Shown here: positions 12,031 through 29,204 of the stretch, in pieces
Layout: each line of letters opens with the position of its first letter
Position numbering within the stretch: the stretch's first letter is position 1
From: a virus
Direction: 5' to 3' (one strand)
Length of the DNA: 46,952 nucleotides
Virus record (IMG/VR): IMGVR_UViG_3300037189_018157
Location: 1-46,952 of that record
Notes under the pieces: model-generated
Databases searched by the model: none
What the model saw: the letters and a program-made list of their open reading frames with translations, nothing else
What the model was told of the DNA's origin: nothing
Translations under genes and position numbers: made by a program

Positions 12031-13127
12031 TTTGTTTCTAGTATTTCCTTTTTGAAGTTATCTAACGTTAGTTTTGGATCTTCAGTTTTTAACATTTCAA
12101 AAACGAGATCGAACACTTCTTGCTCTTGAGCACATTCTTTCAACGTACTCTCAATTCGGTCATTAGTTTTTAATTCTGATCGAATGTTAATCGTTTCCTT
12201 CTCTGTGGTCTTTTCACAGGCTCTGGTCGTAGACACCCTTACAATGCCCACTTCATAAAGCCTAGCTATGTTTGGTAGTAGGTCTTTTTCTTCTTTGGTG
12301 TATTCGACCAAGAACACAGGTTTCTTGCCCGGATTTTCAGTATAGAATTTAGCATACTTCTCAACCCAGTTGATAGGTTCAAAAGATTCTCCTAAATTTA
12401 ACCTGATGAACTGCCTATCGAGTTTAAATGGAACACGCTGCAGTTCAGTTCCATCAAAATACAGTACGCCTTCTTTGTGTTCTATCTCGTCCGTCTTTAC
12501 GACACCCAGGCTGCCACAGTATCCAACCCACTGCCTAGGTCTGAGCATGGCTGGATCTTCAATATACTCAAAACTGGGGTTATGAATATCACCCAGGATA
12601 AATCCCTTCAAATTAGGAAATTCATTAATTGAATCTATTGATTTAATATCCAGCTTCTTTTTGTCTTCACAGAACGGAAACAACTCAGGAACCTGACCAT
12701 GCAGAAACACCCATTTCACTTTTTGCTTGTTGGGTAGGTCTTTGAGCTTCTGGATGTTGTCTGCTGAATTGTCCGTATAGTCAAATCCTACAAACTCGTC
12801 TTTTTGCAGTTTGTTTATAGGTATGACTCCTGCAAGGTGAATCCATGCGGCGTCGTTGACTGGCTTGTCGTGATCTCCGGCAATCCCGGCTGTATAGATA
12901 TTTTTATCATACAGCCGGGATACCTGAGATCGTACAAACGCGATTAGATCTGGAGATGGTTTATTCGTATCAAACAAGTCTCCGACAATGAACAGGTAAT
13001 TTACCTGTAGTTCAATTGCCAGATCACAAGCTCTTACAAAATTATCTTTTAAATCTTCTGCAAGCTCTGGAAGATTGAATAATTTCCAGCCTAAGTGTAT
13101 GTCCGATATTGCGATAAATTTATTCAT
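12027..13127 (-). CDS. SbcD/Mre11-like nuclease subunit (T4 gp47-like)
   Basis: A 366-aa calcineurin-like phosphoesterase, the nuclease partner of the SbcC-like ATPase. Metal-binding motifs are visible in order: SDIH (D9, H11), GDLFD (49-53), GDHD (84-87), H143 in FLHGQ, and GDIH (179-182). The third motif is usually GNHD and the last is usually GHxH, so two positions differ from the family norm. The remaining 180 residues would form the capping and ATPase-contact regions. The start overlaps the 150-aa gene upstream by 8 bases. Confidence 0.9.
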   Translation of the reverse strand: MNKFIAISDIHLGWKLFNLPELAEDLKDNFVRACDLAIELQVNYLFIVGDLFDTNKPSPDLIAFVRSQVSRLYDKNIYTAGIAGDHDKPVNDAAWIHLAGVIPINKLQKDEFVGFDYTDNSADNIQKLKDLPNKQKVKWVFLHGQVPELFPFCEDKKKLDIKSIDSINEFPNLKGFILGDIHNPSFEYIEDPAMLRPRQWVGYCGSLGVVKTDEIEHKEGVLYFDGTELQRVPFKLDRQFIRLNLGESFEPINWVEKYAKFYTENPGKKPVFLVEYTKEEKDLLPNIARLYEVGIVRVSTTRACEKTTEKETINIRSELKTNDRIESTLKECAQEQEVFDLVFEMLKTEDPKLTLDNFKKEILETK

Positions 13128-17367: not shown

Positions 17368-17846
17368 GATCTTTTAACCTTAATATACAACTGCGACGGC
17401 ATGTTATTGTTTTTGAAGTTAATCACCTCGTTCATTAGCGAAGCAATATTCTCCGGTTTGAAGTTAAACGCACGTAATAATCTTTTAATTACATAATGCG
17501 TGAGAAGCTCATCGGCATCAGCCGCCTCTCTGGAATATCTACTATTATTTACGGGATCCATTTGAGAAATTAAATAAGTTGCGTATCTAAGGAGCAGATG
17601 CTCGTTAAATACGAAATTATTCATATTCAATGGGATAAACGCAGGCCCAGTTGGAATTACCTCTGATGGTAAGTCCAACTTTGGTTTGGGCTTGCGGCCT
17701 CGCTTTTTAGGAACAGGTGGAGGCTCGTCTACAACTTTTGGTTGTTTCTTTACTGAGGCTTTTGCGGCTCTTACCTTTTTAACTTTAACTTCAACAACTG
17801 GAACTAACGGTTTTGGCTTATTCTTAGAACCTTTCGGTCGTCCCAT
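17364..17846 (-). CDS. AT-hook-like basic protein
   Basis: I start this 160-aa protein at ATG 17846, giving MGRPKGSKNKPKP, an AT-hook-like element. A longer frame to 17909 would overlap the 74-aa gene by 86 bases, against 23 with this start. A second basic element KKRGRKPKPKLD lies near residues 46-57, after a Lys/Ala/Val linker of the kind seen in histone-like tails. The C-terminal ~90 residues are helical and could form a domain (MNNFVFNEHLLLRYATYLIS). It may bind AT-rich DNA. The stop overlaps the start of the Ycf46-type ATPase by 4 bases. Confidence 0.75.
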   Translation of the reverse strand: MGRPKGSKNKPKPLVPVVEVKVKKVRAAKASVKKQPKVVDEPPPVPKKRGRKPKPKLDLPSEVIPTGPAFIPLNMNNFVFNEHLLLRYATYLISQMDPVNNSRYSREAADADELLTHYVIKRLLRAFNFKPENIASLMNEVINFKNNNMPSQLYIKVKRS

Positions 17847-18048
17847 ACATGTCGTTAATGTTAGCAAACTCCACGGCTGCTTCCTCGATGACGTGTGTCT
17901 CTTTGTCATCGAGCTCTAGTTCAATTGATACAGGAGCTGTCTGCCTATATCCGCGAACCGTACCTTTTTTGCCTAGCAATGAATTATCAAATAAATCCAT
18001 TTGCGCCACTACAACACGATCTCCAATTTTAAATCTCTTTTTGTTCAC
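17824..18048 (-). CDS. 74-aa protein with SH3/KOW-like beta layout, GTG start
   Basis: The start is GTG at 18048. The sequence FKIGDRVVVAQMD...GKKGTVRGYRQ looks like a small SH3- or KOW-type beta barrel (GDxVxV, then GxxGTVxG). Such folds bind nucleic acid or protein. The N-terminus overlaps the 49-aa gene by 20 bases and the C-terminus overlaps the AT-hook-like gene. The fold is inferred from pattern alone. Confidence 0.65.
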   Translation of the reverse strand: MNKKRFKIGDRVVVAQMDLFDNSLLGKKGTVRGYRQTAPVSIELELDDKETHVIEEAAVEFANINDMYGTTERF

Positions 18049-18178
18049 CAGCTTCTTTATTCTTTCTATTTACCAATGCTCCTTTGACAGTCCCGGTTTG
18101 AATTTTGGGACTTAGAACTCTACGCATGGGCTCCACGCGTTTATCTCTTGATATGTAGTTACGTAAGGTTTTTCGCAT
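18029..18178 (-). CDS. 49-aa strongly basic protein
   Basis: It starts at ATG 18178 (MRKTLRNYISRDKRVEPMRR) and ends at TAA 18029, overlapping the next gene by 20 bases. It is rich in Arg and Lys, without cysteines or hydrophobic segments, and probably binds nucleic acid. I recognise no family. The short overlap with a neighbour in a different frame is typical of this operon. Confidence 0.6.
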   Translation of the reverse strand: MRKTLRNYISRDKRVEPMRRVLSPKIQTGTVKGALVNRKNKEAGEQKEI

Positions 18179-18210
18179 ATAACTTGACTTAATTAAGAAG
18201 TTTTCTTATT

Positions 18211-18357
18211 TTAAGACAATAAATTTTTAATTGCACGAACAATTATTTGTTCGGTTATTATTAAAAATCTTTCTATACAGCGAAAACACAGTTCAATCAG
18301 GATTTCTACATTATCCAAATCTTTTTTAGGTACTTTACGGTATTTCGACTTCCTCAT
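18211..18357 (-). CDS. 48-aa protein at the head of the left operon
   Basis: It starts at ATG 18357 and ends at TAA 18211. A basic N-terminus (MRKSKYRKVPKKDL) is followed by a hydrophobic helix with two cysteines (LIELCFRCIERFLII). Its start lies 2 bases from the terminase start on the other strand. If it is translated, its promoter must lie inside the terminase gene, or it is read from transcripts coming from 20075 and beyond. Support is limited to an intact frame and sensible composition. Confidence 0.45.
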   Translation of the reverse strand: MRKSKYRKVPKKDLDNVEILIELCFRCIERFLIITEQIIVRAIKNLLS

Positions 18358-18359
18358 CT

Positions 18360-20078
18360 ATGGAATCTAAAATAGTTAGTTTGTTTAATAGCAAAATCCC
18401 TAAATCGGTTTTCCTTGCGAGGCAGCTCATATTTTCCCAAATACCAACTTCGGCATTTATTGAAAAATATTTGAACGACAACGAAGGGAGACGTCAGGAT
18501 TTATCCCGCTTTCCTATGATGAGGTACATATATGACAATATGCCTCAAAAGTTGCTTTTAAAGTGCAGTAGAAAAACTTTAAAATCAACGCTACTGAGTA
18601 ACATCATTTGTTTGAATTTACTCAGGTGGAATCACTATCACATGCTTTACGTGGCTCCTCAAGAAGCATCTACAAAATACTTTTCATCAAACTATGTAGG
18701 ACCGAGGTTTGATAGTCCAGACGTCAAAAAACTATTCGTCTCTGGATGGGAAAAGAACGACGTATACGAAAAAATATTTGCTGACTCAAACAGCTCAATT
18801 TTATTCAAATACGCCAAGGAAGATGCAACTCGGTGTCGTGGACCTGCTACTGATCATAATATCCACGACGAAGTTCAAGATATGAATTTTGATATATTGC
18901 CGATTATCAAAGAAACAATGGCATTATCTGAATTTAAACGAGAGTTCTTTGCCGGAACACCGTTAACTACAGATAACACCATTAATAGGCTTTGGGAGAC
19001 ATCAGCTATGTTGGAGTGGGCAACCAAATGCGAAGGTTGCAATCATTGGAATATGCTTACTATTGAAAACAACCCGATTAAGATGATTCGGGAAGATGGG
19101 TTTTCTTGTTCCGCGTGTAGCAAAGTGCTGAACACCGTCAATGGTGAATGGGTTTCTAGCTATCTACCTGGTACTGGTAAAAAACCAAATGTCGTCGGCT
19201 ATCATCTAGCTCAGCCGATTCTTCCGTTTTATAATCAAACTGAGAAAGAATGGAGTGAAATCTATAGAAAAGTCACCGACGGCAAATATGGTGTACACCA
19301 AATTTATAACGAGGTTTTTGGCTTAGCCTACGATGTAGGTATGAAACCCATCACGGAACTAGAACTAAAGAAGTTGTGTGTATTAGGACCTAGTCGTGGA
19401 CCTAATGGAGAATTTAAGATTTTAGATGAGCATAAGTCTAGATATAAGAAGTTTACTTCAGGTGTTGACTGGGGTGTGAATATGGTTACGTCTCGAACAG
19501 CTGTTGTACACGGAGCTATTCGAGATGATGGAATTTACGAAGTATTTGACGCCAAGATCTTTGAATCTTTAAATTACAAAGAACATATTCAAGAAGTGGC
19601 TCAAATGTCAAATAAGGTTAGATCGGTTGTAACTGCCGACGGTGGACCTGATCCAATCAGAGCGCACGAACTTGGTGAGCTAGTTACCCCGCAGCGCATC
19701 CTAATAGCCCGCTACGGGCACGGGAAGGTTGTACAGTTCTATGACATGCCAAGAGGTGCACAGAGCTGGAAAGAAAACCGCTACGTCTTACACAGAAGCG
19801 ATTGTCTTTCATTCACCTTCCGTATGTTGAAGGGTGGCAAAATTCTTTTCCCTGATTATGGAGAAATGAAAACTGCTTTAGGCGATATTCTTAATGAATT
19901 CATTGAAGTCAAAGAAAACGCCTTAGTGCAAGAACTGATGTATCGTCACGATCCAACTAAACCAGACGATTTCTTACACGCGCTGACTTATGCAGTGGTG
20001 GCTGCTTATACCGCTGTGGGTGATCCGCTTTTGGCTGGACCATCAAGCTCGGCGCTGGAATTAACAAATACCGACTAA
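18360..20078 (+). CDS. Terminase large subunit
   Basis: A 572-aa DNA-packaging motor, with an ATPase that pumps DNA into the prohead and a nuclease that cuts the concatemer. The ATPase part has a terminase-type Walker A, CSRKTLKST (69-77), and a Walker B ending HDE (169-171). A coupling-type motif FFAGTPLT lies at 196-203. A zinc-finger-like insert with C224/C227 and C250/C253 lies between the domains. The C-terminal RNase H-like nuclease shows D370 in SGVDWG, D427 in TADGGPDP and the pair D536/D537 in KPDDFLHAL. It resembles GpA-type terminases in having the zinc insert. It is the only plus-strand gene between 1 and 25257, and its end overlaps the convergent 71-aa gene by 4 bases. No small terminase gene is recognised nearby. 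Confidence 0.92.
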   Translation: MESKIVSLFNSKIPKSVFLARQLIFSQIPTSAFIEKYLNDNEGRRQDLSRFPMMRYIYDNMPQKLLLKCSRKTLKSTLLSNIICLNLLRWNHYHMLYVAPQEASTKYFSSNYVGPRFDSPDVKKLFVSGWEKNDVYEKIFADSNSSILFKYAKEDATRCRGPATDHNIHDEVQDMNFDILPIIKETMALSEFKREFFAGTPLTTDNTINRLWETSAMLEWATKCEGCNHWNMLTIENNPIKMIREDGFSCSACSKVLNTVNGEWVSSYLPGTGKKPNVVGYHLAQPILPFYNQTEKEWSEIYRKVTDGKYGVHQIYNEVFGLAYDVGMKPITELELKKLCVLGPSRGPNGEFKILDEHKSRYKKFTSGVDWGVNMVTSRTAVVHGAIRDDGIYEVFDAKIFESLNYKEHIQEVAQMSNKVRSVVTADGGPDPIRAHELGELVTPQRILIARYGHGKVVQFYDMPRGAQSWKENRYVLHRSDCLSFTFRMLKGGKILFPDYGEMKTALGDILNEFIEVKENALVQELMYRHDPTKPDDFLHALTYAVVAAYTAVGDPLLAGPSSSALELTNTD

Positions 20079-20290
20079 CCGTTCAACCCGTGGTCATCCA
20101 TTATCTTGTGAATATTGCGTAATTCGAATCTGACTTTTGAATAAAGGTTTTTCAACTTATTCTCAAGTTCTTGAAACTTCTCAGTATCACCTTCCGGCAA
20201 TGCGAGAAGTTCTTTATGATAATCGTCTACTTGCGCGTTCAACCAACGTAAATTGATTGTTGCGTCATCAAGTTTGTCATTAAGACTCAT
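20075..20290 (-). CDS. Unknown 71-aa helical protein
   Basis: A charged protein with heptad spacing (LDDATINLRWLNAQVDDYHK, then FQELENKLKNLYSKVRF), probably a small two-helix coiled coil. It overlaps the upstream 188-aa gene by one base (TAATG) and ends tail to tail with terminase. Function unknown. Confidence 0.7.
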   Translation of the reverse strand: MSLNDKLDDATINLRWLNAQVDDYHKELLALPEGDTEKFQELENKLKNLYSKVRFELRNIHKIMDDHGLNG

Positions 20291-20856
20291 TAATTATTCT
20301 TTTCTAAGTAGTCTAGGATAAACTCCACCCTGGCATTGAATAGCTCTTTCAATGCTTCATTTTTATCATCGTCGTTAGCCGGAGAAGATTCCGGCATTAT
20401 TGCGTTTAGAAATATCTTTGGTGCTTTGTGCATGCCGTATTCGTAAAATACTTTACCGGCGTAGGCCTTGACTTCATCGCTATAATCAATTTTCTCATCA
20501 TCATCGGAGGTACCTTGCTTGATCAAGGCGACCTCAGCCAAAGCTACGGCAATTTCCTCAGCTTCTAGAGGATCAATCTCCATATGATCTGTTGCAGAGT
20601 TATTAAACAAATTACTTACAACTTCAAACACACGCCAATCTGTTTCAAATTGATTTGTGGTCATAACGGTAATTGCAGCCTGGAGCTTGTCAGCTTGTAG
20701 GTCTGTTACCGTGATATCATAATCGGATTCGATCTGGTGCTTTAGCAGTTCAGGTTCCCACGTGAGGGCTGCATTGCCGTATTTATTTAATGTAGCAACT
20801 AATAATGCGAAAGAAGGAGCTTTTTCTTCTTTAAAGATATTTCTAGAAAAAATCAT
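20290..20856 (-). CDS. Unknown 188-aa acidic protein
   Basis: An acidic, helical, soluble protein. The segment LQAAITVMTTNQFETDWRVF followed by EVVSNLFNN suggests a helical repeat-like fold. The C-terminus is acidic (SSPANDDDKNEALKELF). I know similar-looking genes beside phage packaging genes but cannot name a family. It lies 3 bases after the pyrimidine-dimer-glycosylase-like gene and is coupled to the 71-aa gene. Confidence 0.75.
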   Translation of the reverse strand: MIFSRNIFKEEKAPSFALLVATLNKYGNAALTWEPELLKHQIESDYDITVTDLQADKLQAAITVMTTNQFETDWRVFEVVSNLFNNSATDHMEIDPLEAEEIAVALAEVALIKQGTSDDDEKIDYSDEVKAYAGKVFYEYGMHKAPKIFLNAIMPESSPANDDDKNEALKELFNARVEFILDYLEKNN

Positions 20857-20859
20857 ATT

Positions 20860-21300
20860 TTATTCTTTGTTAATTTGGACGGGCCAAATGTAGTCTTGGA
20901 TTGGGGCTTCTTTCCAATCGTATTTTTTATAAAAAGAAAAATCCTTATGCAACAAGGCGGCTCTATGAGAGGCATGTAGCTTTTCATCTCCCAACCAAGT
21001 TGGATCGGATTGATCAGAATATAAATCTAGATACGCGCTAATTTTATCATAACACGTATCCTTGTAACCCAGGTTAATCCACTGCGTACACATAACTAAA
21101 CCATATTTGGCTAGTTGATATTCGTGCCCCACCCACATTAGCCTAGCTGGGTGATTCATCCATGGAACCTTGGGTGTGCTTCTCAGTTTTATGCCTACTG
21201 CTAGCAATTGTAGACACTCTACTCTTTGTTTACCTAATCGTCTGTAATCTAATACTTCGGCGCTTTTCTCAAAACTGCGATACGGCAGAAAGGTTTGCAA
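20860..21300 (-). CDS. Pyrimidine dimer DNA glycosylase-like protein
   Basis: A 146-aa protein with a TTG start at 21300; the family signature MQTFLPY at the N-terminus supports that start. The following RSFEKSAEVLDYRRLGKQRVE, then WMNHPARLMWVGHEYQLAKYG, fits the Pyr_excise (MSMEG_6728-type) family. T4 DenV, the founding member, cuts at UV-induced pyrimidine dimers; these shorter relatives are uncharacterised. It could repair phage DNA, but catalytic equivalence to DenV is not shown. It lies 1 base after the small basic 42-aa gene. Confidence 0.75.
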   Translation of the reverse strand: MQTFLPYRSFEKSAEVLDYRRLGKQRVECLQLLAVGIKLRSTPKVPWMNHPARLMWVGHEYQLAKYGLVMCTQWINLGYKDTCYDKISAYLDLYSDQSDPTWLGDEKLHASHRAALLHKDFSFYKKYDWKEAPIQDYIWPVQINKE

Positions 21301-21301
21301 T

Positions 21302-21430
21302 TTAGTAATTTTCTTTTCGACGTTTTTGTTTGTTAGGTTTGTTTATTCGCTTACCTTCCTTTGACTTATTCCTGGGTTTGAATTTTTCGAAGTTTCCAGC
21401 GACTTCAAATTTTTTCTTACCTAAACCCAT
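21302..21430 (-). CDS. 42-aa very basic protein
   Basis: Starts at ATG 21430 (MGLGKKKFEVAGNFEKFKP) and ends at TAA 21302, one base before the glycosylase-like start. Over a third of residues are Lys or Arg (GKRINKPNKQKRRKE), so it probably binds nucleic acid. Between it and the terminator at 21546 lie about 115 AT-rich bases without a gene. That stretch likely holds the promoter for this gene and the following ones, although I cannot point to specific boxes. Confidence 0.6.
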   Translation of the reverse strand: MGLGKKKFEVAGNFEKFKPRNKSKEGKRINKPNKQKRRKENY

Positions 21431-21545
21431 AACCAAAAGAAATAAACGAATATACGTTCATAGTTTGTATCATTTGCTTTGTATTTGAATAATTGTATTA
21501 ACTGAGTATGAACCTAACTTATAAACAGTTTTTATTCAAATCGCA

Positions 21546-21581
21546 ATAAAAAAATGGGGCAACTCCTTTCGGAATCACCCC
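21546..21581 (-). terminator. Intrinsic terminator after tRNA-Ser/60-aa gene
   Basis: On the minus strand GGGGTGATTCC pairs with GGAGTTGCCCC (11 pairs including G-U) around a GAAA tetraloop, followed by ATTTTTTT. This is a textbook rho-independent terminator. It ends the transcript carrying the tRNA genes and small genes to its right. A second palindrome, CCGCAATTGCGG, lies just upstream at 21583-21594. Confidence 0.85.
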
Positions 21582-21604
21582 TCCGCAATTGCGGGAAGTT
21601 GAAG

Positions 21605-21787
21605 TCAATTAAGTAGTTCTAGAGAAACTGTTTTCTTAATTAAAACCCACTCATGTTCTGGTTTTTTTTGTTTTTTAAATGCTAGCTTTTCCTGTGCATC
21701 TTCCAAACTGAGAGTTTCATATTCAGTCCAAAAGTTTGCGCCAATGCCTTCAAATCCTACAAGGTATTCAACGCGGGTTGTATTCAT
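21605..21787 (-). CDS. Unknown 60-aa protein after tRNA-Ser
   Basis: The start is set at ATG 21787 (MNTTRVEYLVGFEGIGANFW), 6 bases past the tRNA-Ser 3' end. The longer frame to 21874 is a translation of the tRNA itself and is rejected. The protein has an N-terminal beta-like region and a basic middle (KLAFKKQKKPEHEW). Function unknown. A terminator follows 24 bases downstream. Confidence 0.65.
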   Translation of the reverse strand: MNTTRVEYLVGFEGIGANFWTEYETLSLEDAQEKLAFKKQKKPEHEWVLIKKTVSLELLN

Positions 21788-21792
21788 ACTAA

Positions 21793-21880
21793 TGGCGGAC
21801 AGGGTGGGATTCGAACCCACGGTACCTTTCAGTACTACAGTTTTCAAGACTGTCGCAATAGACCACTCTACCACCTGTCC
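21793..21880 (-). tRNA. tRNA-Ser (anticodon UGA)
   Basis: Acceptor GGACAGG pairs with CCTGTCC and is followed by G and an encoded CCA. The anticodon arm is ACAGT CTTGAAA ACTGT, giving UGA. A long variable arm (TACTGAAAGGTA) is as expected for serine. The T-arm GTGGG TTCGAAT CCCAC is standard. It decodes UCA, and with U34 possibly more of the UCN box. Confidence 0.95.
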
Positions 21881-21882
21881 AA

Positions 21883-22101
21883 TTATCTTTCACCTTGAAT
21901 AATCTTTGAGGCGCTGTAATCGGCCTGTGATTGATCCGGTATATCGCTTAAATCAATCATATCATTCGGATCACCACCACGTCTAATATAATCTCTACCT
22001 CCGTCTACAAATACTGATTTGCATTTGCAGAATTTAAAATCATGCCTGTGTGTGGATTCGATTATATCATTACACTTTCTGCATTGTATTTTGTTAATCA
22101 T
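21883..22101 (-). CDS. Small zinc-ribbon protein
   Basis: A 72-aa protein with CRKC at 7-10 and CKC at 28-30, a likely zinc ribbon, followed by VDGGRDYIRRGGDP. This arrangement (IQCxxCxDxIES...HDFxxCxC...VDGGxDYxRR) is a recurrent phage and Gram-positive small protein family, DUF7695 if I recall correctly. Function unknown. It ends 2 bases before the tRNA-Ser 5' end and overlaps the 100-aa gene by 4 bases. Confidence 0.75.
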   Translation of the reverse strand: MINKIQCRKCNDIIESTHRHDFKFCKCKSVFVDGGRDYIRRGGDPNDMIDLSDIPDQSQADYSASKIIQGER

Positions 22102-22400
22102 TTGAGTACTGAAGAACTATGAGTTGTTATGTTTATCATTGCTCGTGCAATCTCATCCCAATTAATTCTATGACAAGTGGATGACAAAAGATCCTTTACG
22201 AATCCATCAGGTATTTTTTCTATATCCATAGATGTCTCAACATGCTCTTCAAAAGAAGCAGCCAAACTATCTATCATTTCATCCATATCCGCATCTGGCT
22301 TTTCTTTTACCAAGTTCTCGGTCAATGATAAAAACTGGGATTGATGATGCAGATTACAATTCCAAGTTTCCCAATTTGACCAACCATTATAAATGCTCAT
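22098..22400 (-). CDS. Small protein with YNGWSNWETWN motif
   Basis: A 100-aa protein beginning MSIYNGWSNWETWNCNLHHQ. The YNGWTNYETWN opening is seen in many short phage and bacterial proteins of unknown function. The rest is acidic and helical (EKPDADMDEMIDSLAASFEE) with a C-terminal CHRINWDEIARAMIN segment. It is coupled to the zinc-ribbon gene by a 4-base overlap. Confidence 0.75.
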   Translation of the reverse strand: MSIYNGWSNWETWNCNLHHQSQFLSLTENLVKEKPDADMDEMIDSLAASFEEHVETSMDIEKIPDGFVKDLLSSTCHRINWDEIARAMINITTHSSSVLK

Positions 22401-22405
22401 AATTT

Positions 22406-22591
22406 CTATTCTTCATTTTTTGGCAATTGCCATAAATCTGTTTCACCCCATTCGTCAATGACCGAGGAATAAATCATAAACCAGTTGTATACCGGATATA
22501 AATCCACACAGTCAAAATACAATGTTAGACTGATCATATGACCAATCCAGTACATGATTCGAGTGGGTAACCAAGCGATTAAGTATTTCAT
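22406..22591 (-). CDS. 61-aa probable membrane protein
   Basis: Start set at ATG 22591 (MKYLIAWLPTRIMYWIGHMI), 15 bases past the tRNA-Leu. The longer frame to 22672 translates the tRNA. The first 40 residues are hydrophobic and aromatic, enough for one membrane segment or a hairpin. The C-terminus is acidic (DEWGETDLWQLPKNEE). Function unknown. Confidence 0.65.
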   Translation of the reverse strand: MKYLIAWLPTRIMYWIGHMISLTLYFDCVDLYPVYNWFMIYSSVIDEWGETDLWQLPKNEE

Positions 22592-22605
22592 AATATATAA
22601 AGTAA

Positions 22606-22686
22606 TGCGGGGAGGGGGACTTGAACCCCCACGGTTTTCACCACTGGCTTCTAAGACCAGCGCGTCTGCCATTTCGCCATCTCCGC
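22606..22686 (-). tRNA. tRNA-Leu (anticodon UAG)
   Basis: Anticodon arm CTGGT CTTAGAA GCCAG gives UAG, which decodes CUA. A long variable arm is present, as expected for leucine. T-arm GGGGG TTCAAGT CCCCC is strong. The acceptor GCGGAGA/TCCCCGC has one A-C mismatch at the fifth pair. The discriminator is A and no CCA is encoded. Confidence 0.92.
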
Positions 22687-22715
22687 TTGTTACTTATCTA
22701 TAAACTTAATTATTT

Positions 22716-23123
22716 TTATTTCAAGGTTTTTTGATGCTTGCGTAGAGTTTCAGCTTGAATCTCCATTAGTAATTCGAACTCCGCTCTACGAGGGGTATTT
22801 CTCATTTGATCTGCTGAGATTTTCACCAACCGGAAACTCTCGGTTGTTTGTACGTATTTTTTCTTAGCAACCATATAGTTATAGTACTCCTCCACTTTGT
22901 GAAGGCGCATTAATTCGGATCTGCGTTCCCAACCGATGTCAGGGTCCCAACTTAATGAAGTATACGCTATTTTAAACGTAGCATACGATTGTCCCTGGCT
23001 ATGCCCATCACGTAACTCATGTTCAGTAATTTTTACAATTACTCCTGGGCGCTGGATGGTATTACACGTTGTGACAACCAAATCACCTACATATAATTCG
23101 TTATTAAAATGATCTATCGCCAT
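22716..23123 (-). CDS. Unknown 135-aa protein, paralogue of the next gene upstream
   Basis: A beta-rich N-terminal half (LYVGDLVVTTCNTIQRPGVIVKI, then FKIAYTSLSWD) and a helical C-terminal half. The arrangement GDLVV...V.KI....KIAY, followed by RRSELMRLHKV, parallels the 97-aa protein at 23104-23397 (GDLIIHS...VREI...KIAYPVEI...RIRKSSLRSAQVV). I read them as diverged duplicates of an SH3-like domain. The two genes overlap by 20 bases. Function unknown. Confidence 0.75.
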   Translation of the reverse strand: MAIDHFNNELYVGDLVVTTCNTIQRPGVIVKITEHELRDGHSQGQSYATFKIAYTSLSWDPDIGWERRSELMRLHKVEEYYNYMVAKKKYVQTTESFRLVKISADQMRNTPRRAEFELLMEIQAETLRKHQKTLK

Positions 23124-23397
23124 TACTAATTCTTTCTTGAAGGTTTCTGTATTCGTTTGCTAATTCTGTAAATTGCCAATTTTGCATCGCGTCTATTGGC
23201 ATCTTTACTACTTGTGCTGATCGAAGTGATGATTTTCTAATGCGATATAATCCATCTACTATTTCTACTGGATACGCGATTTTTAATTTATCATCGCAGA
23301 TTTCACGAACCACAGAATAAGCCAGCAATCCTCGACCGGCGGAATGAATAATTAGATCACCCGGCGCTAGCGGATTATCAAATATATCTTTGTACAT
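23104..23397 (-). CDS. Unknown 97-aa protein, paralogue of the following gene
   Basis: Start set at ATG 23397 (MYKDIFDNPLAPGDLIIHS), 5 bases past tRNA-Val. The longer frame to 23436 translates the tRNA. It shares the GDL(I/V) start, the KIAY segment and a basic RKSSLR element with the 135-aa neighbour downstream. A small beta-barrel domain is likely by pattern. Function unknown. Confidence 0.72.
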   Translation of the reverse strand: MYKDIFDNPLAPGDLIIHSAGRGLLAYSVVREICDDKLKIAYPVEIVDGLYRIRKSSLRSAQVVKMPIDAMQNWQFTELANEYRNLQERISNGDRSF

Positions 23398-23402
23398 AAA
23401 GA

Positions 23403-23477
23403 TGGTGGGCGGTGAGGGATTCGAACCCCCGACCAACTGCGTGTAAAGCAGCCGCTCTACCCCTGAGCTAACCGCCC
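23403..23477 (-). tRNA. tRNA-Val (anticodon UAC)
   Basis: Acceptor GGGCGGT pairs with ACCGCCC, followed by discriminator A and an encoded CCA. The anticodon arm GCTGC TTTACAC GCAGT gives UAC, decoding GUA. The D-arm (TAGCTCAGGGGTAGAGC) and T-arm (GGGGG TTCGAAT CCCTC) are standard. Confidence 0.95.
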
Positions 23478-23486
23478 ATTAAAGTT

Positions 23487-23876
23487 TTAGATTAAATCGT
23501 CTTCGTCCTTAGAGTCAATCAAATCTGACAATTCGGACATGATTTGTTTGCTAAGTTCTATACCCAACTTGGTTAGGGCTTCATAAATTTTAGGCATCGC
23601 TGCTAAAATTTCTTGTCCCGTTTCTGATGTATAGAATTCAATACTTGCATCTAGTGCTTCTTCGGATAATAGCTTGTCATATACAGAAACTTGTTTTTCT
23701 GTGAACTGCTCATATTTCTTGTTAATCTTATCTAGCACTCTATCCTTTAATCTAAGGATGTCTTCTTCTTCCCCATAAATAGGAAGTTCGTCAACTTTTG
23801 TTCTAAATGCACTTTGTAGGTCTGTGCTTATAGACGTGAACTCAATTAATAATTTGATCTTATCTGCTTTGTCCAT
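23487..23876 (-). CDS. DUF2059-like protein
   Basis: A 129-aa soluble helical protein. The segment VSVYDKLLSEEALDASIEFYTSETGQEILAAMPKI fits the DUF2059 core (Y...ls.eel...i.FY.s..Gq.l....P). Cellular members are often secreted; no signal peptide is seen here. The acidic tail ends DSKDEDDLI. Function unknown. It lies between tRNA-Val and tRNA-Pro. Confidence 0.65.
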   Translation of the reverse strand: MDKADKIKLLIEFTSISTDLQSAFRTKVDELPIYGEEEDILRLKDRVLDKINKKYEQFTEKQVSVYDKLLSEEALDASIEFYTSETGQEILAAMPKIYEALTKLGIELSKQIMSELSDLIDSKDEDDLI

Positions 23877-23892
23877 GTGTTAGACTGTTTGA

Positions 23893-23968
23893 TGGTCGGG
23901 TCGAGAGGACTCGAACCTCCGATAACTTGCTCCCAAAACAAGTGCCATAGCCGCTAGGCGACGACCCG
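23893..23968 (-). tRNA. tRNA-Pro (anticodon UGG)
   Basis: Acceptor CGGGTCG pairs with CGACCCG; discriminator A and an encoded CCA follow. The anticodon arm CTTGT TTTGGGA GCAAG gives UGG, decoding CCA. T-arm GGAGG TTCGAGT CCTCT is acceptable. Confidence 0.95.
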
Positions 23969-23972
23969 ATGA

Positions 23973-24059
23973 TTATTTGATTCCTAGGAATACAATTCCC
24001 AGTAATATGTAACATAACATTAAGCCTAATGCTATGATTAATTTTTGCTGTTTACTCAT
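23973..24059 (-). CDS. 28-aa membrane mini-protein (doubtful)
   Basis: An ATG at 24059 opens a frame for MSKQQKLIIALGLMLCYILL plus a short tail, a single hydrophobic helix with a basic N-terminus. It fills the space between the terminator at 24060 and tRNA-Pro. The ATG follows the terminator T-run directly, so it could be read only from transcripts that escape the terminator or are started inside it. Treat it as possible. Confidence 0.35.
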   Translation of the reverse strand: MSKQQKLIIALGLMLCYILLGIVFLGIK

Positions 24060-24103
24060 AAAAAAACTTGAGCCGACTACCAAAGATTTTCAGTAGTCGG
24101 CTC
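24060..24103 (-). terminator. Strong intrinsic terminator after the 349-aa gene
   Basis: On the minus strand GAGCCGACTAC and GTAGTCGGCTC form a perfect 11-bp stem around a 12-base loop, followed by AAG and seven T. It lies 24 bases past the 349-aa gene stop and should end its transcript. Confidence 0.9.
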
Positions 24104-24127
24104 GTAAATTTACTTAATATATTATTA

Positions 24128-25177
24128 TTAAATAGATGAAATACCGCTAAGTTGCTTAAATAGCGCAACGTCTGCCTTTGGCATGGTTGGTAGGATATCT
24201 TTTGCTTCTGCACTCTTTGGATCAAGTTCAAATCCAAAGGCTTGATGATAAACGTCGGATGGTACTCCGGCTAAATCAGCAGCTGCAAACTTCTCTCCAC
24301 CCATCTCAATCACATCTGTATCGGATGCTACTTTAGAAAAGTGCAATGTGAAGATTTGATCTACAGGGTCACCTATGATTTTATTATAGAATGCCTTGTC
24401 GTACAAACCTGCACTTTTTTCAGTATAGTAGCAGCATTCTGCTAACTTGAAAAACTCTTCCTTTGATGAGGTGTTACCGACATCGTCAATCAACTGTTGG
24501 TAGCGTACTTTGCCTTCCTCGGACAACTTAGTCATCCTGCGAGCAAGTTCCTGCTTTACGTGATTCAGATCTGGATAGAACTGCCCAGCATACTTAAGGA
24601 TTAGGTCTGGTAGCTCGTCGAGACCAAATACCTCCGCAGCCTTCACAAACTGCTCTGCAATGCCTCTGCGCCACTCAAATGGATATTTGTTGATGTTGTC
24701 CACAAACCCCTTCGCCTGCCTGGTTACGTCGCCTGCGGTCTTAACCGCAAATAGGTCAATCTCGCTAAGCTCCTTGGCGGTCTTAATTCTAAATACAATC
24801 GAGCGATCCTTTGGAGCTGCGTTAAGCCGCTCTGACGCAATTTTGTTATATTCTGCAACTTCCTCTTCAATACCGAAAATACGTGAAGCAAGCTTCAACA
24901 TTTCAGCTGTCTTCTCTACGTGAACTTTACCTTGTAGCTTTTCGAGTTCAGCACGCTTATTTATAAAGAAAGCGTTAGATACATAAACTCTTGCCTTGGA
25001 ATTGATTGGGAATAGTCGGTTTTCCTGATCAGCAAATGCTGACTTCGTTAGAACACCGGCGTACTTTAAATCTGAAACCGCAGCCTCCTTTACAAAGCTA
25101 GGGATGTTAACCCCAGATAAATATTGATAAAGTTCCTTATTCGAGTAATCTTTAGACTGATCGATGCAATTAATCAT
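24128..25177 (-). CDS. Unknown 349-aa protein, probable virion or capsid-associated
   Basis: A soluble, helical protein. Near residue 45 it has FADQENRLFPINSKARVYVS, which resembles the 'FADpxnrkyPldt..hVraA' element found in several phage head-associated proteins. The remainder is helical with repeated KAAEVFG/KTAGDV-type segments and no enzyme motif. It is flanked by an 80-base divergent spacer upstream and a strong terminator downstream, so it is probably transcribed alone. A separate, well-terminated gene fits a protein needed in quantity, but that is inference. No assignment to major capsid can be made. Confidence 0.8.
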   Translation of the reverse strand: MINCIDQSKDYSNKELYQYLSGVNIPSFVKEAAVSDLKYAGVLTKSAFADQENRLFPINSKARVYVSNAFFINKRAELEKLQGKVHVEKTAEMLKLASRIFGIEEEVAEYNKIASERLNAAPKDRSIVFRIKTAKELSEIDLFAVKTAGDVTRQAKGFVDNINKYPFEWRRGIAEQFVKAAEVFGLDELPDLILKYAGQFYPDLNHVKQELARRMTKLSEEGKVRYQQLIDDVGNTSSKEEFFKLAECCYYTEKSAGLYDKAFYNKIIGDPVDQIFTLHFSKVASDTDVIEMGGEKFAAADLAGVPSDVYHQAFGFELDPKSAEAKDILPTMPKADVALFKQLSGISSI

Positions 25178-25257
25178 ATTAACAATATTAACATTTTAAT
25201 GTCTTTGCTCAAGTAGTTTCTTCACTAGCAAAAAAATAATAATACAATTAACTTACA
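25178..25257. promoter_or_regulatory. Divergent AT-rich spacer, probable promoters both ways
   Basis: Eighty bases separate the starts of the minus-strand 349-aa gene and the plus-strand 422-aa gene. The spacer is over three quarters A/T with a run of seven A and repeated AATATTAAC-like blocks. Both genes must start transcription near here unless read-through serves them. I cannot fix -35/-10 boxes with confidence. Confidence 0.4.
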
Positions 25258-26526
25258 TTGAAAATTAACGATTTCAACTCAAAAGTAAACCTACCTAAAT
25301 TCTGTACCAGACTTGGTTACACGGATTATCAGTTCGTACGTCTACCTACGTTCGGTTGGTATGCTTACAACACAGATCAATCGTTTATAGGTAATGTATT
25401 TGAGATTGTGAGTCGGGATGATCAGGCGCAACTATACGCTCTAATTTCAAAGGAGAAACCCGAATATCTGGATTTCGATTTGGCGTATTCAGATTTGTCT
25501 GAAAGTAAGTTGAAATACAACCTATTAGAAACCCAACTCTGGACGGCGGCATATGCCATGGCGAAACGGGAGATGGACACCTACCGAATAAGCACCGGCG
25601 GTAAGAAGATTCCGATTAAGGAGGCGTTGGCTGAAAATGGCATGCTTGCACTGATTGAGAACGGTGTAGGTATTATTACGGGAAATCTGATAGAAAAGTT
25701 CAGTATGCTGCCTTGGCCAAAGAAAGATCTCAGGGGTAAATTCTTAATACCAACTTTTTGTACCCCGCTTCATATTGCATCATTAGAATACTGCTCGTTT
25801 AATAACATAGGTGATTTACATTCACTGTGGATAAATGATGAGAAGGGTTGGTATGGAAATATAAAAAGTAACAATGTAATTTCTGATATAAAAGAATTCA
25901 CTACCACACCGGGCTTTATATGGGATTACAAGGCTGACTACTGGACCAACAAGCAAATCGTCAACCTAAGCCCAAATCTCGACGTAATGGACTGTATACG
26001 GATATGGACTGAATCTCAGCATTCTGCTTTCTCTACTTCTCCGTTACAGCATATCGTGGATACGGGTAGAGCCGAAGATTTAAAAAACTACGTAGGTAAA
26101 CTGAATTATACCCAACTACAAGAAGCGGAACAAATTACAGGACAAAAGCTTAAAGCTTACTGGACCAGGGTCAGGGAAGAACAAGTCATCATAGGTAACA
26201 AGACTTTCCTTAAGCGGGATAACATGTACTACATCTATAGCAAAGGAGGATTGCGGCAGGTGACCAACTTCACTGTAGATATTGAGAAGATCGTCAAACG
26301 CGGAAATAAGTTTTTTAGAATGGGGCTACTTCACTTTGGTAATCAGGCTGCTCCATTTGAATTAGACGAATCCTTTTTTACAACCAATTATAAGTTCCAC
26401 AGAGGAATCAAAGAAAAGTTTTTGAAAGCTGGGTTAGGAGTACCAATCATTGATCCTCAATTTTTTAGTCAAGCGCTGCTGATTATAGACAGCTTTAATT
26501 CTGGAGTAATTGTAGAATTAGAATAA
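25258..26526 (+). CDS. Unknown 422-aa protein on the plus strand, TTG start
   Basis: A long open frame whose only reasonable start is TTG at 25258; an in-frame stop lies three codons upstream, and the next ATG is about 100 codons in. No Shine-Dalgarno is visible. The protein is soluble and mixed alpha/beta. The middle (LRGKFLIPTFCTPLHIASLEY, then HSLWINDEKGWYGNI) and the C-terminal part (VIIGNKTFLKRDNMYYIYSKGGLRQVTNF) look like beta-rich domains. The latter recalls regions ahead of helicase domains in some phage and plasmid primase-helicases. No ATPase, zinc or Toprim motif is present. It is isolated between divergent and convergent minus-strand units. Confidence 0.75.
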   Translation: MKINDFNSKVNLPKFCTRLGYTDYQFVRLPTFGWYAYNTDQSFIGNVFEIVSRDDQAQLYALISKEKPEYLDFDLAYSDLSESKLKYNLLETQLWTAAYAMAKREMDTYRISTGGKKIPIKEALAENGMLALIENGVGIITGNLIEKFSMLPWPKKDLRGKFLIPTFCTPLHIASLEYCSFNNIGDLHSLWINDEKGWYGNIKSNNVISDIKEFTTTPGFIWDYKADYWTNKQIVNLSPNLDVMDCIRIWTESQHSAFSTSPLQHIVDTGRAEDLKNYVGKLNYTQLQEAEQITGQKLKAYWTRVREEQVIIGNKTFLKRDNMYYIYSKGGLRQVTNFTVDIEKIVKRGNKFFRMGLLHFGNQAAPFELDESFFTTNYKFHRGIKEKFLKAGLGVPIIDPQFFSQALLIIDSFNSGVIVELE

Positions 26527-26588
26527 ATTTCTTGCTTAACAGTTCTACCTCGTAGTTAAAAAATAAGCGTTCCAAATTCAGGAAGGGA

Positions 26589-26631
26589 CAAAGGTCACTA
26601 GAAGCATATTACTATGCCGCTGTGACCTTTG
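26589..26631. terminator. Inverted repeat between convergent units
   Basis: CAAAGGTCAC and GTGACCTTTG form a perfect 10-bp stem; a second small stem (GCAT/ATGC) can form inside the loop. It sits 62 bases after the plus-strand gene and 10 bases past tRNA-Ala on the minus strand, exactly where two converging transcripts should stop. There is no adjacent T-run, so it may act as a weak bidirectional terminator or an RNA 3'-end stabiliser. The flanks 26527-26588 hold nothing else that I can see. Confidence 0.6.
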
Positions 26632-26640
26632 TGAGAAGAA

Positions 26641-26713
26641 TGGAGCCATGGGGATTCGAACCCCAGACCTATAGCTTGCAAAGCTACCGCTCTACCAACT
26701 GAGCTATGACCCC
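26641..26713 (-). tRNA. tRNA-Ala (anticodon UGC)
   Basis: Acceptor GGGGTCA pairs with TGGCTCC with one G-U pair; discriminator A and no encoded CCA. The anticodon arm GTAGC TTTGCAA GCTAT gives UGC, decoding GCA. Standard D- and T-arms (CTGGG TTCGAAT CCCCA). The 91 bases between this and tRNA-Thr are AT-rich and carry no gene. Confidence 0.94.
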
Positions 26714-26804
26714 TTATTATCAGTGGGCTAAAAAATCGTGATGCTTATTAATAAGTTAATGCATCCGTAATATATTATACCACAATATTGCAATATTTAC
26801 AGAG

Positions 26805-26892
26805 AGCCTTGTGTGGGGTTTGAACCCACAAAGAGGTTTCCCTCATTCTCGATTACAAATCGAGGCCCTTAGCCAATTCGGGTCAACAAGGC
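26805..26892 (-). tRNA. tRNA-Thr (anticodon UGU) with a long variable arm
   Basis: Acceptor GCCTTGT pairs perfectly with ACAAGGC. The anticodon arm CTCGA TTTGTAA TCGAG gives UGU (Thr, ACA). The T-arm is GTGGG TTCAAAC CCCAC. The variable region is 18 bases with a GAGG/CCTC stem and GAAA loop, a class II feature normal for Ser, Leu and Tyr but not Thr. G1-C72, C2-G71, G35 and U36 agree with known threonine identity elements. Discriminator is U and no CCA is encoded. The D-arm (CCC/GGG) has a Tyr- or Ser-like layout. The amino acid is therefore Thr by anticodon but not fully settled. Confidence 0.82.
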
Positions 26893-26903
26893 AATGTGTG
26901 TTT

Positions 26904-27419
26904 TTAAGGTGGCGAATTTACGCTAGTATAATTAACTGGTTCAGGAACCGACTTAAGCAACGTAGATCTTTCAAATACAACATTACTTGCCGTATTTGCG
27001 TACTCTAATGAAAATGGATATCTTGCGATGGTTCTGCGCAAATCACGATTACCTGCACCAGCCTGCTCAGTAATGGCAACATCGAGCCAATAGGTCCCCG
27101 CGATCAGATCTTTCGTAAACGAGGCGGGGATACTGATTCTATACATTCCTGGGGCTGGTAGCTTTTCGATGTGATTACTGAAATGCTCGTTGGAATTACC
27201 TAGCGCCCCTTCCCACAGCAAAGTGGTGGCATATGCCGTTGTCTTAAGAAGCGCAGTAACATACCATCTATCAAGCTCCACAGGTTCAGATTCGTAATTT
27301 AAATAAATATCAAAAATAACGTCGTCTCCCTGATATACCGATACCGGTGCTGGCTTACCCAATGGTTCAGGGTAAGTATCCATTTTTTTAGTTGTATAGT
27401 AAACGTCTTGAAGTCTCAT
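26904..27419 (-). CDS. Probable tail/baseplate structural protein
   Basis: A 171-aa beta-rich protein. After an extended N-terminus it reads VSVYQGDDVIFDIYL, then a strand-turn pattern ending APGMYRISIPASFTKDLIAGTYWLDV. This is the shape of an immunoglobulin-like or BppU-like N-terminal domain seen in baseplate proteins. It is the last protein gene of the tail operon, 11 bases before tRNA-Thr. The assignment rests on pattern and context. Confidence 0.6.
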   Translation of the reverse strand: MRLQDVYYTTKKMDTYPEPLGKPAPVSVYQGDDVIFDIYLNYESEPVELDRWYVTALLKTTAYATTLLWEGALGNSNEHFSNHIEKLPAPGMYRISIPASFTKDLIAGTYWLDVAITEQAGAGNRDLRRTIARYPFSLEYANTASNVVFERSTLLKSVPEPVNYTSVNSPP

Positions 27420-27420
27420 A

Positions 27421-27735
27421 TTAGAAGCAATATTTTTTAATCTGTCCTTTAGTATCTTTTATAAAATAACAAATCTTTTTAGCATTTAAAATATTTTTAA
27501 AAGATTCTTTATCTTGGTCTGATAACATCGACATTCCAGCTTCAAACATGGGGCGGTAGGTATTTAGTTCATTTGCCTGTTTGAAACCTGCGGAACAACC
27601 ACATCCCTTTTTAGGTTGTTCCGCAGTCACGATATCTTTTAATGCAGACATCGCTGGCAAATTAACTAACAAAGGATATTTTTTAGCTAAGTCTATAAAA
27701 GCACTAATACTAGAAATTTGTACTAATTCATTCAT
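27421..27735 (-). CDS. Unknown 104-aa protein with CGC motif
   Basis: A helical protein with a central KKGCGCSAGF element and two more cysteines at the end (KKICYFI, KKYCF). Four cysteines could bind metal or form disulphides. It sits inside the tail operon between the paralogue array and the 171-aa protein, one base from the latter. Function unknown. Confidence 0.7.
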   Translation of the reverse strand: MNELVQISSISAFIDLAKKYPLLVNLPAMSALKDIVTAEQPKKGCGCSAGFKQANELNTYRPMFEAGMSMLSDQDKESFKNILNAKKICYFIKDTKGQIKKYCF

Positions 27736-27769
27736 GTGAGATTTGTATCAAAATAATTCTCTTTGTCAA

Positions 27770-28507
27770 TTAAAGAGCAGGATTGAGCGGGATGTCTTGG
27801 CAGATATCTTCTGCGCTTGTAAAAATTGCACCAATGAATATTCGATAATTGGCTGGATCATCTATAATCACGATGTTGCTATCACCTTTTAAAAAAATTT
27901 CTGATTTTGAATTTGGAGCAGCTCCATTAATAAATGAAACAATTGAAGAACAATCATTTTCAATATTACCGAATGAATCACAGCGGATATGTTTACCAAG
28001 GTACTTACCTAATTCAATATAGATAGTATCTGAAATAATATTTAAATCAGTTTGATAGCCTTCTATTAAATTAATAATTCCAGTTAACTTTTCTGAAGTT
28101 TCAAAACTTATATTCTTAACACCTAACCATTCTCCACCAAATTCGCAAGAAACGCTAGGTTCAAATATTACATTAGAAAAATTATGTTCACCGACAGGTA
28201 TGTTTTTTGCACCAGATCCTATAACCAATAAGCTACCTAAATTATGCCTTAAATATTGTGGATATGGCTCGCCTAAATGACTAGTAAAAGTCAACTCACC
28301 GATTACAAAGTCAACAGTGTCGGAATTTACGGTTATTTGCGTTAAAGCGGTAGTCTCTTCAAGAGATTCAAATACGAACTGAGCATCAACAATAACGTTA
28401 TCTGTCAATTTATATTCAGAATCGGCAGTTCTTACTATCGCTTCTTTTAACGGAAAAGCGCGAAGTTCATTTTCATTCAACCAATCAATTACCAACGAGT
28501 CAGACAT
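27770..28507 (-). CDS. Tail-fibre/baseplate paralogue 5 (245 aa)
   Basis: Start set at ATG 28507, just after the stop of the preceding gene. This gives MSDSLVIDWLNENELRAFPL, which aligns with the N-termini of the four upstream genes; the frame to 28567 would overlap and lacks this match. The N-terminal motif is h.(F/W/Y)(L/N)..N.hR.(Y/F)P. The C-terminal half has the (S)IVSFINGAAPNSKSEIFL version of the K.IN...PD..GN element common in phage fibre and collar proteins. It is probably a subunit of an external tail structure. It is the last and shortest but one of five tandem copies. Confidence 0.65.
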   Translation of the reverse strand: MSDSLVIDWLNENELRAFPLKEAIVRTADSEYKLTDNVIVDAQFVFESLEETTALTQITVNSDTVDFVIGELTFTSHLGEPYPQYLRHNLGSLLVIGSGAKNIPVGEHNFSNVIFEPSVSCEFGGEWLGVKNISFETSEKLTGIINLIEGYQTDLNIISDTIYIELGKYLGKHIRCDSFGNIENDCSSIVSFINGAAPNSKSEIFLKGDSNIVIIDDPANYRIFIGAIFTSAEDICQDIPLNPAL

Positions 28508-28508
28508 A

Positions 28509-29204
28509 TTAAGGATTTGAATTAATAGGCAATGTATTGTTTTGCTGGGCAACGACATTACCCACACTTAACCCACGTAAAGACACCGTGAATGTATTTA
28601 TGCTCGGAGTAATTTTTATCGTATCTGAATCTTTAATATAAAGACTATTGTTAGTAGGTGGTACTGCATTAACGGTTTTTAAATATAAATCAGGAGATAT
28701 AGCTCCAAGAGATACCGCGTTAATTTCGACATTGTTTCCTGTAACCGAGTATGAAATATTTTCATCACTGGTAATTTGCAGTTCTCCGAAGTTAGATTGT
28801 AATTTATATACGCCAGCTTTTGACGGAATACTTTTAACTAAAAATGCCAAAAATTTTAAATTTATGTTTAATGTTCTATTGGCCAACTCGTCATAAAGAT
28901 AAACAGCGTTAGCCCCCAATACAAGTTTACCCAAATATCTAGAACCTTCTTTTATTACAATTGTGTATGGTGAGTTAGGAAGCGTTGATTTATCAATTGT
29001 TATTATTTTAGTTGTTTTATCAAATTGAATTACAAGTTCAAATAAATTATTTCCTGTTGTAATGGTTTTTAATACGGGCACAAATCCATCAAACTGAATA
29101 AAATTTGCATCAATGATAAACCCATCGTATCCAAAAGAAGAAACTAAAGGATACGGAGATAAACTTGTTTCATTATTCCAACTTAATATACCAACTTTAG
29201 CCAT
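28509..29204 (-). CDS. Tail-fibre/baseplate paralogue 4 (231 aa)
   Basis: Starts MAKVGILSWNNETSLSPYPL, the array N-terminal motif. It is beta-rich throughout. The C-terminal element is LYLKTVNAVPPTNNSLYI, the equivalent of the K.IN..PPD..GN element. The C-terminal ~40 residues (SLRGLSVGNVVAQQNNTLPI) look like an exposed strand region. It is shorter than paralogues 1 and 2 and lacks their cysteine/coiled-coil extension. Probably part of a receptor-contacting or decorating structure on the baseplate. Confidence 0.65.
   Translation of the reverse strand: MAKVGILSWNNETSLSPYPLVSSFGYDGFIIDANFIQFDGFVPVLKTITTGNNLFELVIQFDKTTKIITIDKSTLPNSPYTIVIKEGSRYLGKLVLGANAVYLYDELANRTLNINLKFLAFLVKSIPSKAGVYKLQSNFGELQITSDENISYSVTGNNVEINAVSLGAISPDLYLKTVNAVPPTNNSLYIKDSDTIKITPSINTFTVSLRGLSVGNVVAQQNNTLPINSNP

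Follow-up and report, generated by a model that had tools for sequence, protein, structure and literature searches.

We found six tRNA genes in a linear viral contig that is 46,952 bases long (IMG/VR record IMGVR_UViG_3300037189_018157; the window, hereafter, is this whole stretch), and all six (6/6) encode U34-bearing readers of four-codon boxes in which the second codon base is a pyrimidine (NYN codons). Their threonine member, tRNAThr(UGU), is a threonine-type tRNA with a changed, class II body: it keeps the anticodon, the acceptor pairs and U73, and it carries a long variable arm. We lean modestly towards a reading in which the six form a set that would be modified at U34 and the re-armed tRNAThr would still accept threonine while evading a tRNA-cutting defence. 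The window is a portion of a large AT-rich tailed-phage genome, probably a fragment of it, and its tRNA set is a fresh instance of a known phage practice. Across the window ARAGORN called exactly six tRNAs, each of them on the minus strand. Rfam RF00005 gave the identical six, scoring them at 45.6–72.2 bits where the gathering threshold is 29, and a permissive Rfam scan of window positions 17000–29000 found no seventh tRNA. The six genes, each called by both ARAGORN and Rfam, are as follows.

21793–21880, minus strand: tRNASer(UGA), class II, CCA encoded
22606–22686, minus strand: tRNALeu(UAG), class II, CCA not encoded
23403–23477, minus strand: tRNAVal(UAC), CCA encoded
23893–23968, minus strand: tRNAPro(UGG), CCA encoded
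26641–26713, minus strand: tRNAAla(UGC), CCA not encoded
26804–26892, minus strand: tRNAThr(UGU), class II body, U73, CCA not encoded

A first-pass annotation, made from the letters alone, had described all six as U34 isoacceptors of four-codon boxes and had noted that four-box tRNAs for Gly and Arg, as well as tRNAs for two-codon boxes, are missing; on both points the two programs agree with it throughout the window. In Escherichia coli, the tRNAs with (m)cmo5U34 are listed as tRNAAla1, tRNASer1, tRNAPro3, tRNAThr4, tRNALeu3 and tRNAVal1 (PMC10516636), and are described as the six species serving NYN codons (PMC6599085). The window anticodons match this E. coli set exactly, with six isoacceptors and none extra or missing. 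The Gly and Arg members are missing from the window set because their boxes fall outside the xo5U34 class. Seen in this way the U34 pattern becomes simple, as a set that bacteria handle as one modification class. The window set differs from that of E. coli in that its Thr member is class II and in that the whole set sits in one phage fragment.

The phages most closely related to the window carry mixed sets. We examined 19 kin records, with sizes up to 198 and 204 kb; tRNAs are present in 12, and none of these 12 is confined to U34 four-box tRNAs. U34 four-box tRNAs account for 27 of the 79 tRNAs read by script in these 12 records. When six distinct isoacceptors were drawn from the 79, all were U34 four-box tRNAs in 11 of 200,000 draws (5.5e-5), and exactly the window's six appeared in one draw (5e-6); with a pool of 764 other phage tRNAs the values were 2e-5 (4 draws) and 5e-6 (1 draw), all of these statistics being post hoc, with the pattern chosen after the data had been seen, and taking no account of common ancestry. 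Among 78 further phage stretches that have at least five tRNAs, one is purely U34 four-box (L298, with Leu, Thr, Gly, Val and Pro). The window set is thus improbable as a random draw, yet it is not shown to be the whole complement of the phage, and it may be incomplete because the contig is probably a fragment. Of the earlier proposal that the set was selected for reading whole boxes alone, what stands is the existence of the set and its low probability as a random draw; a complement restricted to four-codon boxes is unproven, given the fragment and the mixed kin sets.

The nearest kin phage (G001, 106,940 bases) has a terminase 55% identical to that of the window, is colinear with the window over the first 38 kb and has homologues for 17 of the 46 window proteins. 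Its tRNAs (14 by script, 15 in another listing) are located at 61–79 kb, beyond the part covered by the window, and include Lys-UUU, Glu-UUC, Gln-UUG, Gln-CUG, Arg-UCU, Arg-CCU, Leu-UAA, Asn-GUU and Gly-UCC. The pattern that the first-pass annotation named as contrary to its own proposal, with tRNAs for two-codon boxes or with C34 or G34, is therefore present in the kin, while the genome at hand is readable only as a fragment. In the G001 interval between the homologues that flank the window tRNA group, there is a transfer-messenger RNA (tmRNA) gene at about 11 kb and no tRNA. Two kin phages, G001 among them, encode a tmRNA (L001, 17137–17548, minus strand; L030, 183–574, plus strand). The G001 tRNAAsn(GUU) has a variable region of 14 bases, and the same phage has an 85-base tRNAPro(UGG) (L027, 8436–8521 and 6610–6694, both plus strand).

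The tRNAThr(UGU) of the window lacks the class I body, with its variable loop of 4–5 nucleotides, and has an 18-nucleotide variable region in its place:

26830–26847, minus strand: variable region of the tRNAThr, 18 bases, a 4-bp stem GAGG/CCTC with a GAAA loop

Class II tRNAs, those with a long variable arm, are normally specific for Ser, Leu or Tyr, as summarized in PMC7609411. The acceptor, anticodon and T stems of the long-armed tRNAThr are 7, 5 and 5 bp, and it keeps G1-C72, C2-G71, C3-G70 and U73. The identity of tRNAThr resides in acceptor pairs and the anticodon, and E. coli tRNAThr has G1-C72 and C2-G71. Among the kin, U73 is found in all nine tRNAThr(UGU) species (9/9). In an alignment of nine long-armed tRNAThr sequences, all five helices contain two-sided changes, which in the variable arm affect three of the four pairs. 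Of all cells, 98.1% are paired, and covariation scores 0.63 as compared to 0.21 for shuffles; the structure itself comes from the window sequence, which gives it an advantage over its slid controls. A pseudo-tRNA is unlikely, since the helices covary. Near-identical long-armed tRNAThr genes exist in three other viral stretches (L106, L141 and L157), in whose flanks of 5.6–13.2 kb no window homologue was found. The long-armed tRNAThr therefore seems to move on its own between phages. Our searches of the open-access literature met no description of a class II tRNAThr in phages or bacteria, although one may be in print elsewhere.

The long-armed form is widespread among phages. A scan pattern in which a long variable region comes after the Thr anticodon stem-loop, with U36AAUC fixed, matched 118 stretches of viral contigs, loci being given for a part of them. 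Of 82 scripted places (including the window, L088, L090 and L091), 78 are called tRNAThr(UGU) by ARAGORN, and only these 78 enter the identity counts. The 60 distinct class II sequences have G1-C72 in 56 cases and C2-G71 in 57; at position 73, 47 of them have U, nine A, four C and none G. Class I tRNAThr with the same anticodon stem is at least as common, with at least 120 stretches. An 87-nucleotide class II tRNAThr form matches 101 phage records at 80% coverage or more, by name mostly Salmonella and Escherichia phages, these being sequence matches that were not each folded. Stretches with a class II tRNAThr also differ in their other tRNAs: class I tRNALeu accounts for 24 of 51 distinct tRNALeu sequences there, as compared to 3 of 34 in stretches with a class I tRNAThr (p 0.0003). 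The corresponding differences are weak for class II tRNAAsn (8/26 and 2/22, p 0.08) and for class II species among all tRNAs other than Ser, Leu and Tyr (28/403 and 5/199, p 0.02). These comparisons count distinct sequences and ignore kinship, and the number of tRNAs per locus differs between the two sets (8.4 and 4.25). Short-armed tRNALeu genes were seen in several phages (L088, 1305–1789, minus strand, and 22 other distinct tRNALeu sequences), and a 248-kb contig that also has long-armed tRNAThr and tRNAAsn contains four short-armed tRNALeu genes in one cluster.

Long-armed tRNAThr genes are also found in bacterial metagenome-assembled genomes (MAGs). In the phylum of a Prosthecobacter-labelled contig, 161 of 387 genomes contain a match to a pattern that admits either class, and class II accounts for three of the 150 matches listed. 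The three genes are:

L342, 7680–7762, minus strand: long-armed tRNAThr(UGU), bacterial MAG contig
L343, 7262–7344, minus strand: long-armed tRNAThr(UGU), bacterial MAG contig
L344, 471–556, minus strand: long-armed tRNAThr(UGU), bacterial MAG contig

Two of them adjoin an open reading frame (ORF) that we read as a putative ileS, and the third lies in a stretch whose ORFs read as a putative two-component system and a putative biotin ligase. One of the two MAGs with the putative ileS (G280) shows no tRNAThr(UGU) other than the class II gene among its 44 tRNA matches, with class I tRNAThr(GGU) and tRNAThr(CGU) also present; as a MAG it may be incomplete, which is a caveat on the sole tRNAThr(UGU). 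Since this bacterium seems to rely on the class II form as its reader of ACA, the class II tRNAThr(UGU) appears to work and to be charged with threonine. The tRNAThr(UGU) pattern had no match in 199 genomes of another phylum, and a further scan of five genomes gave three matches, all class I (3/3).

We looked for a candidate host. A 36-mer of the window tRNAVal matches 27 genome contigs, 19 of them Verrucomicrobiota (16 by title), the contigs named Pedosphaera, Prosthecobacter and Akkermansia being assigned to that phylum. Motifs resembling the Shine–Dalgarno (SD) sequence precede three of 41 window genes (one of 31 ORFs in a second count); the corresponding counts are 18 of 176 for the matched Verrucomicrobia contigs and, for comparison, 7 of 15 for a T5 stretch. 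The tRNAVal match and the scarce SD motifs are no more than suggestive of a Verrucomicrobiota host, and low SD use also fits Bacteroidota. The first-pass annotation had considered a host without readers of A-ending codons; the six U34 tRNAs all occur in a MAG from the phylum loosely suggested for the host, which speaks against this idea.

In the reading that we favour, the six tRNAs would provide each of the six NYN four-codon boxes in the phage mRNA with a U34 reader. Host xo5U34 enzymes would be expected to modify them, and the modified tRNAs would read codons ending in A, and also those ending in G and U. The re-armed tRNAThr(UGU) would be charged with threonine and work as an ordinary tRNAThr(UGU), while its changed body would make it a poor substrate for host enzymes that destroy the class I tRNAThr(UGU), such as AriB of the PARIS system. 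AriB is reported to cleave tRNALys(UUU), tRNAThr(UGU) and tRNAAsn(GUU) of E. coli; the T5 copies of tRNALys, tRNAThr and tRNAAsn together inhibit PARIS, and T5 tRNALys alone rescues the phage Bas33 from it (PMC12409363). The record of the phage HildyBeyeler, whose locus tags read bas33, has at 66–92 kb a class II tRNAThr(UGU), a class II tRNAAsn(GUU) and two class I tRNALeu species, and no tRNALys(UUU) was found in that stretch. In the T5 stretch, all tRNAs are of the canonical classes, with a class I tRNAThr. Taken with the rescue experiment (PMC12409363), this would support our reading indirectly: the class II tRNAThr and tRNAAsn of HildyBeyeler may have done the work of their T5 counterparts. 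The AriB site is U36AAUC|A41; the HildyBeyeler tRNAThr has U36AAUC with A41, and the window tRNAThr has U36AAUC with G41. If the HildyBeyeler tRNAThr is resistant, the body and not the site would be responsible, because U36AAUC and A41 are kept. With a laboratory coliphage, it could readily be tested whether phages evade tRNA-cutting immunity by a change of tRNA body that leaves the amino-acid identity intact.

Several points weigh against this reading. The identity of Bas33 and HildyBeyeler rests on the locus tags, since the name Bas33 is given to another phage in a legend of the BASEL paper. According to PMC12409363, T4, which has a tRNAThr(UGU) of its own, is also rescued by T5 tRNALys alone, and T7 needed no tRNAAsn. 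T5, which evades PARIS, has a class I tRNAThr. Re-arming is thus not needed for escape. Our scan pattern itself fixes U36AAUC, the AriB motif, so that a protective change of the cut site is not indicated and protection through the body is inferred. All nine kin tRNAThr(UGU) species are ordinary class I (9/9), and the chromosomal class II genes described above show that the form exists outside phages. Finally, cmo5U itself may be rare in the loosely suggested host phylum: CmoB is over the cut-off in 5 of 59 genomes, and peptidase U32, a broad family that includes the hydroxylase TrhP, is found in 46 of the 59.

A broader proposal, which we put forward tentatively and consider rather doubtful, is that phages uncouple the variable-arm class from the amino acid as a general counter-defence, by placing long arms on tRNAThr(UGU) and tRNAAsn(GUU), class I species that are targets of defence nucleases, and stripping the arm of tRNALeu. 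Nucleases that read the shape of a tRNA would then miss the re-shaped species, while synthetases that read the acceptor and the anticodon would still charge them, and the window tRNAThr would be one case, exchanged between otherwise unrelated phages. Textbooks treat variable-arm length as fixed by the amino acid; in phages it changes freely in Thr, Asn and Leu tRNAs, and one bacterial MAG seems to depend on a class II tRNAThr for its ACA codons.

The known systems that come closest share some of these features. The tRNA clusters of T5 and other tequintaviruses are similar to that of the window in that tRNAs are mixed with small ORFs, and in that HildyBeyeler has an 87-nucleotide class II tRNAThr(UGU); T5 differs from the window in its class I tRNAThr and its broad set of isotypes, the window having six tRNAs of one kind. 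The tRNAThr(UGU) isoacceptor, an AriB target, is common to the window and the PARIS-evading T5 tRNAs (PMC12409363), while the terms 'variable loop' and 'variable arm' are absent from the main text of that paper. According to PMC13096335, T5 tRNATyr owes its resistance to retron-Eco7 to a distinctive variable loop, which is a precedent for the nuclease resistance through an altered arm that we propose for the window tRNAThr. However, tRNATyr is normally class II, and in the window tRNAThr the class itself has changed. Long arms on tRNAs other than Ser, Leu and Tyr are also seen in allo-tRNAs and in selC* tRNACys; these have longer acceptor and anticodon stems, as presented in PMC7609411, whereas the window tRNAThr has stems of ordinary length with Thr-type pairs. 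We rejected an allo-tRNA assignment for the window tRNAThr, in which the lengthened acceptor stem is absent: the acceptor stem has 7 bp and the T stem 5 bp. Allo-tRNAs have acceptor/T arms of 8/4 or 9/3.

Alternatively, ordinary codon compensation might account for the set, with U34 tRNAs helping an AT-rich genome, the NYN purity being due to chance in the part of the genome at hand and the Thr arm being a neutral variant with no defence role. We regard this as possible, though on balance unlikely. It is favoured by the fragmentary state of the window together with the mixed sets in 12 of 12 kin, by a GC content at third codon positions of 0.35 in the window, by the existence of one other pure U34 four-box stretch among the 78, which includes Gly, and, for a neutral variant, by the occurrence of the class II tRNAThr on bacterial chromosomes. 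However, the improbability of the set as a draw, post hoc as it is, stands against an accident, and the demand for A-ending codons is higher in two-codon boxes that are left unrepresented. In 41 window genes, GAA, AAA and UUA are used 47.0, 46.8 and 30.7 times per thousand codons, as compared to 12.9–23.7 for the A-ending codons of the six boxes. Codon demand thus does not single out these six boxes, all three codons being used more than any of the six. The co-occurrence of class II tRNAThr with class I tRNALeu (24/51 against 3/34) suggests more than drift.

The long arm might instead cause tRNAThr(UGU) to be charged with serine (or leucine or tyrosine), so that ACA codons would be mistranslated. 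Features of recognition by seryl-tRNA synthetase (SerRS) include a long variable arm and G73 (PMC7609411), and the window tRNAThr(UGU) shares the long arm with tRNASer. It has U73, however, and none of the 60 family sequences has G73, while G1-C72 and C2-G71 are kept in 56 and 57 of them; threonine is therefore the likelier charge, because the SerRS determinant G73 is absent from the family. Serine charging would also corrupt ACA codons genome-wide in G280, whose only tRNAThr(UGU) seen is class II, and we consider it very unlikely. The explanation of the first-pass annotation, that the set was selected so that unmodified U34 could read whole boxes by superwobble in a cell whose own tRNAs are cleaved or absent, fits the 6/6 U34 four-box tRNAs and a mechanism that does occur in organelles and reduced genomes (PMC3499367), but it is scarcely credible here, as these six tRNAs are just those that naturally receive xo5U34 and loss of the modification is reported to bring slower growth and more +1 frameshifting (PMC6599085), Gly is missing although superwobble is known in the Gly box (PMC10853795), and the kin carry two-codon-box, G34 and C34 tRNAs.

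Small ORFs lie between several of the window tRNAs on the same strand, and one larger ORF on the opposite strand divides the group. These features, together with the terminase gene, are:

18360–20078, plus strand: terminase large subunit, the marker for finding kin
22098–22400, minus strand: small ORF between the Ser and Leu tRNAs, weak match to phrog_871 (function of phrog_871 unknown)
22716–23123, minus strand: small ORF between the Leu and Val tRNAs, no family match
23487–23876, minus strand: small ORF between the Val and Pro tRNAs, DUF2059 (PF09832)
24128–25177, minus strand: ORF of 349 amino acids between the Pro and Ala tRNAs, G001 homologue 41% identical
25258–26526, plus strand: ORF of 422 amino acids dividing the tRNA group, G001 homologue 30% identical

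The window terminase matches 159 annotated phage records, all with less than 60% identity, and with 27% or less in the 20 matches listed. Megablast of the 20-kb middle of the window against the annotated phage collection found no relatives, and a scan of viral contigs with the 349-residue protein gave no confirmed relative. A pyrimidine dimer DNA glycosylase gene (PF03013; 20860–21300, minus strand) adjoins the tRNA group. Elsewhere on the minus strand of the window are a gene for a protein with an N-terminal domain of the uracil-DNA glycosylase type (PF03167) and a sub-cut-off match to DNA polymerase A (PF00476) (677–3466), and tandem SbcC/Rad50-like and metallophosphoesterase genes (9779–13127).

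Four kin phages contain a 99-base tRNA-like element that has an Rfam tRNA score and no ARAGORN call:

L035, 1749–1847, minus strand: 99-base tRNA-like element
L029, 1715–1813, minus strand: 99-base tRNA-like element
G014, 92326–92424: 99-base tRNA-like element
G017, 95731–95829: 99-base tRNA-like element

In L035 and L029, the acceptor, D and T arms are present, about thirty bases replace the anticodon loop, and a run of T follows. Judged from these features, the element in L035 and L029 is a putative tRNA-like RNA without an evident anticodon.

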